From assembly GCF_026626705.1 (NCBI RefSeq), contig NZ_JAPNKC010000001.1:12959001-13023000 (forward strand): 64,000 nucleotides of DNA. Direction: 5' to 3'. The translations under genes were made by a program, and so were the position numbers. Positions 7,093 through 38,083 of the stretch are shown here, piece by piece. The notes below the pieces were generated by a model that worked only from the letters and a program-made list of their open reading frames with translations, had not been told where the DNA came from and searched no databases. Source of the stretch: Pyxidicoccus sp. MSG2 (lineage in GTDB: Bacteria > Myxococcota > Myxococcia > Myxococcales > Myxococcaceae). The first letter of the stretch is position 1. Every line of letters starts with the position of its first letter.

Positions 7093-9129
7093 TCAGGACA
7101 TCTGGAAGACGCGGAGCAGCACGAGCGCGCGCTGCAGGTCTCCAATGACGGAGATCTTCCCCGCACCGAACATCGACATGGCCTCGCCCGGGTCGTTGTA
7201 GAGCCGCTGGAAGTCGCTCTCGGAGAGCGCGAGCGAGATATCCGGCGTGCCACGGCCCTCGTACACGGTGGGCTGCGCGCGCGACAGGTCCAGGGTGAAG
7301 GTCCGCACGCCGCTCAGGCGCAGCTCGTACACCCCGCCCAGCGTCCGGGCCTCCTCCGCGTTGCGCTCCAGGGCCGGCTTGATCCGCTCGAGCAGCAGCG
7401 CTTCCAGGGACAGGTCCACGGCCGCCTCTGTCGCCGTCTTGAAGAAGATGCGGTCCTCCAACACCAGCGCATCCAGCGCGCAGCCGAGGAAGAACTTGAT
7501 TGCGTCCGCGGGCGTCTCGACGATGGGCATGCCCTTGCGGTTGAAGGAGGTATTCAGCAGCACGGAGATGCCGGTGACCGCCTTGAAGTCCTTCAACAGC
7601 CGGTAGTACGCGGGGGACACGTCCTCGGTCACCGTCTGGATGCGGGCCGAGTTGTCCTGGTGCACCACACTAGGCAGTTTCGAGCGCCACTCGGAGCGCA
7701 CCGGCGCCACCAAGATCATGTACGGGCTGTCGTATTCGCAGTCGAAGTAGGTGGAGCAGTCCTCCCGCAGCACGGACGGGGCGAAGGGGCGGAAGTCCTC
7801 GCGGAACTTCACCTTCGAGTTGATGAAGTCGCGCATCTCCGCCCGGCGCGGATCCGCCAGGATGCTGCGGTGGCCGAGCGCCCGCGGGCCGAGCTCCGAG
7901 CCGCCCTGGAACCAGCCCACCACCTTGCCATCCGCGAGCAGCTCCGCGGTACGCCGTGAGACGTCCTCCACCGGCTCTTCCTTCAAATGCTCGCCGTGCT
8001 GCTTCACGGCCGCCTCGAGCTCGTCGCGACGGTAGTGCCGGCCGAACGCCGAGGCGCCCGTGGCCTTTACCCGCTCCCGCTTGAGCACCTCCAGCCAGCC
8101 GTAATACGCGCAGCCCACCGCCAGGCCGTTGTCGCCCGCCGCTGGCTGGATGAACAGGTTCTTGAAGCGCGTCTGCGTGCGGATGAGCCGGTTGGCCACC
8201 GCGTTGAGCGCCACGCCGCCCGCGTAGACGAGGTTGTCCGACGGGGAGACCTCGTAGCGATGGTTCACCACGTGGAGGATGGCCCGCTCCACCTCGCGCT
8301 GCACCCACCACGCGAAGTCCGCGTGCGCCTGGAAGTGCTCCTTGAAGTCGGTCTTGTTGCGCGCCGGGCGCGTGAAGCGCTCCTGCCAGTCGTAGCGCAC
8401 GAAGACGCGGCCGTCCTTCAGGTCGAAGATGGGAAAGTCATGCTGGCCGGGGCGGCCGTAGGGCGCCAAGCCCATCAGCTTCCCAGGGTCCTCGAAGCCC
8501 GCGAAGACGTAGGTGCTCGCCGCCAGGTACATGCCTCCAATGGAGTGCATGGTGCTGCCAGGCCGCAGGGGGTAGTTCTTGAGAGCGAGGCCGCCCTCGG
8601 AGAAGTCCTTGTACACGGGGCGCAGCTGGCCCTGCGCGTAGCGGTAGTAACTGTCCTTCTCGTAGAAGAGGTGCCCCAGCTTCTCGGGCGGAACTTCCGG
8701 GAGGGTGCACCCCTTCAGGTCGAGGCAGTCGTCGTAGGAACTGCCACAGCCGTCGATGATGAGCACCGCGGCCTCGTCGAACGGCGAGGCGCCAATGGCG
8801 CTGTAGGCATGCGACAGGTGGTGGGAGATGGTGACGATGGGGACGTTCGTCCCCTTCACCATGCGGGGTCCGCGGTACCAGTCGTCGGCCCCCACGAGCA
8901 TGCCGAAGTTTTCGTTCTGCACCACGGCGGCCACGTCGTCGATGGTGATGCCCTCGGCCTGCAGGCAGTAGCTCACCGCGTCCGAGTCGTTGCCTCCATC
9001 ATGCTTGCGCCGGGTGATGCGCTCCTTCTCGATGGCCACGCAGATTCGCCCGTCCTTGATGAGGCACGCCGAGCCATCGTGGGAGAGGCCCGTGCCAAGG
9101 ACATAGGTGGGTCTGGTGCTCCGAGTCAT
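7093..9129 (-). CDS. NodU/TobZ-type O-carbamoyltransferase with C-terminal SCP2-like domain
   Basis: 678 residues. Enzymes of this family make carbamoyl-adenylate from carbamoyl phosphate and ATP and pass the carbamoyl to a hydroxyl of a natural product. The N-terminal Kae1-like part opens with GTGLSHDGSACL (residues 12-23), contains SHHLSHAYSA (102-111) with the metal-binding histidines, and DGCGSSYDD near 126. The C-terminal catalytic part (about 380-570) has ELGPRALGHRSILADPR, FREDFRPFAPSVL, and LLNTSFNRKGMPIVETP. Beyond about residue 580 there is an extra ~95 residues (YELRLSGVRTFTLDL, then DISLALSESDFQRL, then GAGKISVIGDLQRAL) that read as an SCP2 sterol-carrier-like domain, an unusual fusion. 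The gene is divergent from the dioxygenase-NRPS genes with 71 bp between the chosen starts. A tailoring enzyme for the NRPS product, acting on hydroxy-Asn or Ser, is inference. Confidence 0.88.
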   Translation of the reverse strand: MTRSTRPTYVLGTGLSHDGSACLIKDGRICVAIEKERITRRKHDGGNDSDAVSYCLQAEGITIDDVAAVVQNENFGMLVGADDWYRGPRMVKGTNVPIVTISHHLSHAYSAIGASPFDEAAVLIIDGCGSSYDDCLDLKGCTLPEVPPEKLGHLFYEKDSYYRYAQGQLRPVYKDFSEGGLALKNYPLRPGSTMHSIGGMYLAASTYVFAGFEDPGKLMGLAPYGRPGQHDFPIFDLKDGRVFVRYDWQERFTRPARNKTDFKEHFQAHADFAWWVQREVERAILHVVNHRYEVSPSDNLVYAGGVALNAVANRLIRTQTRFKNLFIQPAAGDNGLAVGCAYYGWLEVLKRERVKATGASAFGRHYRRDELEAAVKQHGEHLKEEPVEDVSRRTAELLADGKVVGWFQGGSELGPRALGHRSILADPRRAEMRDFINSKVKFREDFRPFAPSVLREDCSTYFDCEYDSPYMILVAPVRSEWRSKLPSVVHQDNSARIQTVTEDVSPAYYRLLKDFKAVTGISVLLNTSFNRKGMPIVETPADAIKFFLGCALDALVLEDRIFFKTATEAAVDLSLEALLLERIKPALERNAEEARTLGGVYELRLSGVRTFTLDLSRAQPTVYEGRGTPDISLALSESDFQRLYNDPGEAMSMFGAGKISVIGDLQRALVLLRVFQMS

Positions 9130-9173: not shown

Positions 9174-9200
9174 GTGCCGCGCGACCGCCAGCCCTCCCCC

Positions 9201-10160
9201 ATGCTTCCCCTCACCCTCGATCCTCCCTCCCCGGACACTTCTCTTCTCGACTGGGTCGAACAACACCGCGAGCGTTGGCGCACGGCGCTCCTGGAGCACG
9301 GCGCCGTGCTCTTCCGGGGCTTCCACTTCGAAGGGCCCCAGGACTTCGAGAAGCTCTCCGGCGCGCTCTACGTGGACCCGCTGCGCTACGTCTACCGCTC
9401 CACCCCGCGCACGGAGGTGGGCCGAGGCGTCTACACCGCGACCGAGTACCCGCGGCAGGAGACGATTCCGCAGCACAACGAGAACGCCTACTCGGACAGC
9501 CGTCCGATGAACCTGTGCTTCCACTGCGTCACTCCCGCCGAGCAGGGCGGAGAGACGCCTCTGACGGACAACCGGCTGACCACCGCGAACATCCCCGAGC
9601 CCATCCGGCGGCGCTTCGAGGAGCGGCGCATCATGTACGTCCGCAACTACGGGCCTCGTGTGGACCTGCCCTGGCAGGTGGTGTTCCAGACGCAGGAGCG
9701 CTCCGAGGTCGAGGCGTACTGCCAGGCGCACGGCATCGAGTTCGAGTGGAAGGACAAGGACGGCACCCGGCTGCGCACGCGCCAGGTGCTGCCCGCCGTG
9801 GCCCGGCATCCCCTCACGGGAGAGACGTTCTGGTTCAACCAGGCGCACTTGTTTCACGTGAGCAGCCTGGCCCCCACCGCGCAGCAGGCGATGCAGATGC
9901 TCTTCAAGAAGGAGGATCTGCCGCGCAACGCCTACCACGGCGACGGGAGCGATATCGACGTGGCCGACCTGGAGGCCATTCGCAAGGCGTACCAGGACAC
10001 CCTCGTCACCTTCCCCTGGCAAAAGGGGGACGTGCTGCTCGTGGACAACATGCGGGTGACCCATGGGCGCAAGCCCTACGAGGGCACGGGCCGCAAGGTG
10101 CTGGTGTCCATGGGTGACTGCTACGCAGCCGACGTGAAGTCCCTCCAGACTCCGCGTTAG
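9201..10160 (+). CDS. TauD/TfdA-family Fe(II)/2-oxoglutarate dioxygenase (SyrP/AsnO-like hydroxylase)
   Basis: 319 residues from the ATG at 9201; an in-frame GTG at 9174 would add nine residues. The iron-binding facial triad is visible: His92-x-Glu94 in IPQHNENAYS and the distal His288 in VTHGRKPYEG, with Arg298 (TGRKVLV) as the 2-oxoglutarate anchor. The HxE form, rather than HxD, is typical of the SyrP and AsnO-like hydroxylases that act on amino acids in NRPS pathways. No signal peptide. It lies 188 bp upstream of the NRPS gene on the same strand and probably shares its transcript. Most likely beta-hydroxylation of an Asn or other residue, free or carrier-bound, creating a site for the carbamoyltransferase. 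The substrate is inference. Confidence 0.82.
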   Translation: MLPLTLDPPSPDTSLLDWVEQHRERWRTALLEHGAVLFRGFHFEGPQDFEKLSGALYVDPLRYVYRSTPRTEVGRGVYTATEYPRQETIPQHNENAYSDSRPMNLCFHCVTPAEQGGETPLTDNRLTTANIPEPIRRRFEERRIMYVRNYGPRVDLPWQVVFQTQERSEVEAYCQAHGIEFEWKDKDGTRLRTRQVLPAVARHPLTGETFWFNQAHLFHVSSLAPTAQQAMQMLFKKEDLPRNAYHGDGSDIDVADLEAIRKAYQDTLVTFPWQKGDVLLVDNMRVTHGRKPYEGTGRKVLVSMGDCYAADVKSLQTPR

Positions 10161-10348
10161 CGCGCCTGGGAAAGGATGACGGCCGCGGGCCCGGCGGGCT
10201 TTGCGCCAGGGGCGAGCCAGGGGGTATCGTCGCTCGGCTGCCTCCCCCTCCTTGTTGAAGTTCTTCGGAGCCTGCGCTCAAGGCGGCTGCGTCCTCGTTA
10301 CAGGGCGAACGCCGTGCCGAGCCTGGCGGTCCACAGCGATTCGTGACC

Positions 10349-38083
<27,735 letters not shown>

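Follow-up and report, generated by a model that had tools for sequence, protein, structure and literature searches.

The locus described here raises the question of why a carbamoyltransferase (CTase) should end in a domain of a kind that binds fatty acids or sterols, an association that suggests fat-tagged peptide precursors as its substrates. The protein is encoded in the window, the 64,000-nucleotide stretch of Pyxidicoccus sp. MSG2 DNA that was analyzed as a whole, and comprises 678 aa; it is a class III (NodU/TobZ-type) O-carbamoyltransferase with an SCP2 domain as its last ~104 residues. The gene and its domains are arranged as follows:

7093..9129, minus strand: CTase-SCP2 fusion gene, 678 aa plus stop, in a single open frame
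8107..8874, minus strand: Carbam_trans_N (Kae1-like) match, residues 86-341 (Pfam PF02543, E=6.6e-37)
7444..7947, minus strand: Carbam_trans_C (YrdC-like), residues 395-562 (Pfam PF16861, E=4.3e-70, 235 bits)
7408..7431, minus strand: linker, residues 567-574 (pLDDT <50 at 567-572 in the full-length model)
7096..7407, minus strand: SCP2 domain, residues 575-678 (PF02036, 40.6 bits; fold matched by Foldseek and VIA-align)

The catalytic part

Both domains of the class III CTases are thus present in the front part of the protein. The full-length model superposes on TobZ with a Z score of 41.9 over 502 residues, aligned from residue 7, and in the structural search run with this model the matches listed were taken up by the catalytic domains. 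The conserved residues H17, K441, M471, R496 and S528 map onto catalytic positions of TobZ, the numbering being carried over through the TobZ alignment and the TobZ variants being taken from PDB titles; H17, K441, M471 and S528, the counterparts of TobZ H14, K443, M473 and S530, are found in all three full-length proteins of the SCP2 type. What is known of the family suggests that the enzyme transfers a carbamoyl group onto a hydroxyl. The first-pass annotation had called the enzyme NodU-type, which is apt for the superfamily, but the protein is not NodU itself, as it scores 167.5 bits against NF041651, for which the NCBIfam cut-off is 1000.

The C-terminal SCP2 domain

Sequence and predicted fold support the assignment of the tail to SCP2. 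In the whole protein, Pfam places the SCP2 match at residues 588-675 (E=1.3e-8, 35.5 bits), and the tail alone (575-678) matches PF02036 with an E value of 3.5e-10 and 40.6 bits, against a gathering cut-off of 21.3 bits; the tails from three other genomes score 42.6-49.7 bits. A phmmer search of the PDB with the tail returned SCP2 proteins first (4jgx, E=0.0023; 2c0l/1qnd, 0.02), annotated SCP2 proteins were matched by the tail of the orthologue from genome G062 in tblastn with E values down to 8e-5, and the significant matches of a tail profile on plasmids were likewise annotated SCP2 proteins.

Structural models were generated using AlphaFold2. The full-length model, built from 20 alignment rows, has a pLDDT of 83 overall and about 80 across the tail, a region covered by the four orthologous rows only, and orders the tail as helix-helix-four strands-helix-helix-strand-helix-helix. 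A second model of the tail alone, predicted from the 4 orthologous rows, is of medium confidence (pLDDT 79.5); since it was built without outside SCP2 sequences, the comparison of folds is not circular. Among the best 25 Foldseek matches in the PDB, nearly all were annotated as SCP2 or SCP2-like (E values of 7.3e-6 to 8e-4), while 3cnu (8e-4) carries the annotation "predicted coding region" only, and alkylsulfatases with SCP2-like domains come after the SCP2 entries. With VIA-align, rank 1 was the liganded human MFE-2 SCP-2L domain (1ikt; Z=9.1, 93 residues, rmsd 3.2). The predicted tail therefore shows the SCP2 fold (helices, sheet, helices, closing helix) and matches solved SCP2 domains best with both programs, although a shared fold alone does not prove lipid binding, for which SCP2 domains use a hydrophobic tunnel that takes up acyl chains or sterols.

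The proposal that a CTase and an SCP2 tail are joined in one protein is borne out by Pfam, by phmmer against the PDB and by the predicted fold; it is right because, in the search of solved structures, the front part matched CTases and the tail matched SCP2 proteins. The motifs on which it had been based occur as quoted, DISLALSESDF from residue 630 and GAGKISVIGD at 655-664. The C-terminal position of the domain also stands, with a start that lies slightly earlier than had been given, at residue ~575 (window ~7407). A frame or assembly artefact was ruled out, since the same junction is kept in frame in three further genomes.

Tails of related carbamoyltransferases

Nor is the tail a standard extension of the CTase C-domain: TobZ ends before it, GdmN has a dimerisation domain, and the nearest relatives carry other tails or none, on which grounds this explanation was rejected. 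The CTases L001-L003 and L008-L013, of actinobacterial and myxobacterial origin, share 36-61% identity with the fusion across the catalytic part, but their tails, of about 90-140 residues, are winged-helix/PqqD-like or have no family assignment and are not SCP2. The closest other CTases are the actinobacterial ones, 54-61% identical up to residue ~569, and their tails give weak winged-helix/PqqD matches in Pfam that lie below the cut-offs; the myxobacterial CTases without an SCP2 tail are about 39-43% identical, and the tails of L008, L010 and L011 had no family match. A profile of the non-SCP2 tails searched against structures matched PqqC/D with an E value of 0.0047 and the GdmN tail with only 0.17. 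Winged-helix/PqqD-like tails were located at L001:3375-3749, L002:2565-2951, L003:11672-12022 and L063:3142-3438, and are possibly peptide-recognition elements. Class III CTases appear to carry interchangeable C-terminal domains, namely none, a dimerisation domain, a winged-helix-like domain or SCP2.

Distribution of the fusion

The fusion is real and rare, and it is the architecture that is new, the parts being known. A survey for the same tail was run with profiles built from four close sequences, which can miss distant SCP2 tails; it detected the CTase-SCP2 fusion in 4 of 195 Myxococcota genomes, all belonging to the genus of the window. In an actinobacterial class, of which 395 genomes were covered, no CTase had an SCP2 tail, and the single match lay in a 185-aa frame. 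The four fused copies were the only strong matches in the Myxococcota; all other matches fell in frames that either stand alone or are longer and unrelated. Full-length orthologues with the same architecture occur in G073 (92% identity) and G062 (83%). The copy in G054 retains just residues 439-678 in a 283-aa frame (L062:11729-12458), and the surrounding 20 kb gave no NRPS or TauD match, which together mark it as a 3' remnant. Recent capture of the other SCP2 gene of the same genome (L049) was also considered and rejected, tblastn giving no similarity of note. Separately, several Myxococcota have open frames of ~1000 aa with two tandem SCP2 domains (G048:C7:7050-7733, G092:C78:5973-6626, G095:C226:5401-6066).

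Genomic context

Two further genes of the window are relevant to the possible substrate:

9174..10160, plus strand: TauD-family Fe(II)/2-oxoglutarate dioxygenase (Pfam PF02668, E=1.1e-42)
10343..38083, plus strand: 8-module NRPS, 9246 aa (Pfam domain counts, motif positions)

The TauD gene is divergent from the fusion gene, with 44 bases separating the start codons, and is kept beside the fusion in G073. The NRPS, downstream of it, has an N-terminal C domain followed by the layout (C-A-T)x5-E-(C-A-T)x3-TE, with one E domain. We take the A-domain pocket codes to be asparagine-like in modules 1-4 (DATKVGEVGK), serine in module 5 (DVWHVSLVDK) and glutamate-like in module 6 (DAKDLGVVDK), those of modules 7 and 8 being uncertain. 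The first four A domains (window 10343-23000) hardly differ around the pocket, and internal C domains are up to 82% identical. Between G073 and the window, the CTase, TauD and the first C domain are 92-94% identical while the first A domain differs, being alanine-like in G073; the near-identical modules and this difference indicate, at the level of sequence, a recent duplication or exchange of modules.

The N-terminal C domain (C1) had been described as a starter type. C1 looks LCL-like, with 49-53% identity to the internal LCL-type C domains, so its starter type is unproven. Its best solved matches are Txo1/Txo2 proteins, and the C domains of CDA and 7c1h/7c1k, which we take to be of the starter type, come last in its match list; with the limit unchanged, C2 does not match them. 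In the window, neither a gene for a fatty-acyl-AMP ligase (FAAL) nor one for a penicillin amidase was seen.

The lipid link is backed, circumstantially, by the 83%-identical orthologue in G062. There, the NRPS opens with a FAAL, made up of an AMP-binding and a DIP2-like domain, together with a C domain. Besides the CTase-SCP2 protein, the cluster also encodes a penicillin amidase, a methyltransferase, a glycosyltransferase and one protein without an assignment (L060:5859-8447, L060:2-5680); no TauD was found in this cluster. Such a gene content fits an acylate-then-deacylate, prodrug-like pathway. The fusion is therefore found near an NRPS in two distinct contexts only, NRPS plus TauD (window and G073) and a FAAL-initiated NRPS (G062). 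Of nine loci around relatives without SCP2 (L001-L003, L067-L072), none gave FAAL, penicillin-amidase or TauD matches at E<=1e-15 and two had NRPS modules nearby, a contrast of context drawn from few loci with short flanks (about 1-11 kb by locus).

Proposed function and alternative explanations

The best reading, to which we give an even chance, is that a lipopeptide intermediate of the NRPS is held by its acyl tail in the SCP2 domain while the catalytic domains carbamoylate one of its hydroxyls. In the mechanism that we infer, in which acyl binding, the substrate and the sequence of steps are all part of the inference, carbamoyl phosphate and ATP would yield carbamoyl-AMP, from which the carbamoyl group would pass onto the hydroxyl, as in a class III O-carbamoyltransferase. 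The SCP2 domain would have taken the place used by other auxiliary domains in relatives; the fatty-acyl tail of the NRPS-made lipopeptide, either the final product or an acylated precursor, would be bound in its putative pocket, and this binding would select the lipopeptide and bring its peptide portion to the catalytic cleft. The target hydroxyl in the window could belong to serine or could be introduced by the TauD dioxygenase encoded next to the fusion. As a precedent, the SCP2 domain of UbiJ is a proposed binder of the polyisoprenoid tail of biosynthetic intermediates (PMC9499169); the SCP2-like domains of the alkylsulfatases among the structural matches are another. Against the acyl-tail reading count the C1 domain of the window NRPS, which is not clearly a starter, the faster evolution of the tail, and the restriction to two distinct gene contexts compared over short flanks. 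In a narrower version, which we regard as less likely than not, SCP2 would recognize a prodrug-type NRPS intermediate by its fatty-acyl tag, and only the acylated precursor would be carbamoylated, before a deacylase takes the tag off; if true, this would be a lipid-tag-gated tailoring enzyme in one polypeptide.

The strongest alternative to binding of the acyl tail is a structural role like that of the GdmN C-terminus or the auxiliary domains of MycE and SpnK, in which the SCP2-fold domain would dimerise the enzyme or cap its active site with no lipid ligand. We consider this a minority prospect, though a serious one: the domain occupies the site at which GdmN has the dimerisation domain that its activity requires (D574-L674; PMC9633730), other CTase relatives have different domains at the same place, and VIA-align matches the tail model to domains of two natural-product methyltransferases, SpnK and MycE, and of the acetyltransferase Eis (Z about 4-6). 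The best matches are nonetheless true SCP2 proteins (Z up to 9.1) and not auxiliary domains, and a structural role leaves unexplained the association of the SCP2 form with an acylating NRPS cluster. A literature search on the MycE auxiliary domain gave nothing relevant. It seems unlikely that the domain instead anchors the enzyme, either on membrane lipids or on carrier-bound acyl intermediates of the NRPS, providing localisation and not substrate selection; the NRPS neighbours in two contexts would fit, as would the UbiJ-UbiK2 complex, modelled in close membrane interaction (PMC9499169), but neither a docking element nor a membrane helix was recognised.

Least probable of all, and in our judgment quite improbable, is that the tail is a recently gained, weakly constrained appendage with little function. 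Its narrow distribution would agree with this, as would the excess of amino-acid over synonymous changes in the tail between G000 and G073 (tail, 19 and 2; CTase part, 31 and 25; Fisher p=0.004, from small counts and a test picked after seeing the data). However, the dN/dS of the tail against G062 is 0.60 for G000 and 0.43 for G073, below 1 although above the values of about 0.23-0.26 in the catalytic domains, and the domain is intact and SCP2-like in all copies. The faster change of the tail could mean relaxed constraint or adaptation to different ligands.

Returning to the acyl-tail reading, the SCP2 version is an example, open to testing, in which a tailoring enzyme would bring along a lipid-binding module of its own; if lipid binding is true, SCP2 could help direct tailoring enzymes to acylated substrates. 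The fusion can also guide genome mining for acyl-prodrug pathways or carbamoylated lipopeptides.

Comparison with known systems

Literature searches, which covered few subscription papers, found no paper on a fusion of carbamoyltransferase and SCP2, nor on a carbamoyltransferase with a sterol carrier protein in a biosynthetic gene cluster. Among solved structures, TobZ (PDB 3ven-3vf4) resembles the fusion in its two catalytic domains, its fold and its catalytic residues, but, with 576 aa in the PDB, stops where the SCP2 domain of the fusion starts. GdmN (7vyj) and NovN (9s2t) are class III CTases as well and have ~100 extra C-terminal residues at the same place. Homodimerisation of GdmN runs through its C-terminal domain (D574-L674), which was described as having no known fold (PMC9633730), whereas the tail of the fusion is recognisably SCP2; the phmmer match to GdmN ends near the close of the catalytic part (query 586, chain 585), and some structural alignments extend into the tail, a comparison that does not discriminate the fold.

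Human MFE-2 SCP-2L (1ikt), the Yarrowia SCP2 protein (4jgx) and UbiJ (6h6n-p) share sequence family and predicted fold with the tail, but, unlike the fusion, none of these entries is joined to a carbamoyltransferase. At the level of the pathway, the closest parallel is corramycin, a myxobacterial NRPS product line with a FAAL start and a proposed deacylation of a fatty-acid-linked precursor (PMC10099666), the same logic as in the G062 cluster, whereas in the window no FAAL or amidase gene accompanies the NRPS. Carbamoylation is absent from the main text of the corramycin paper (PMC10099666), whereas the fusion clusters encode a CTase.
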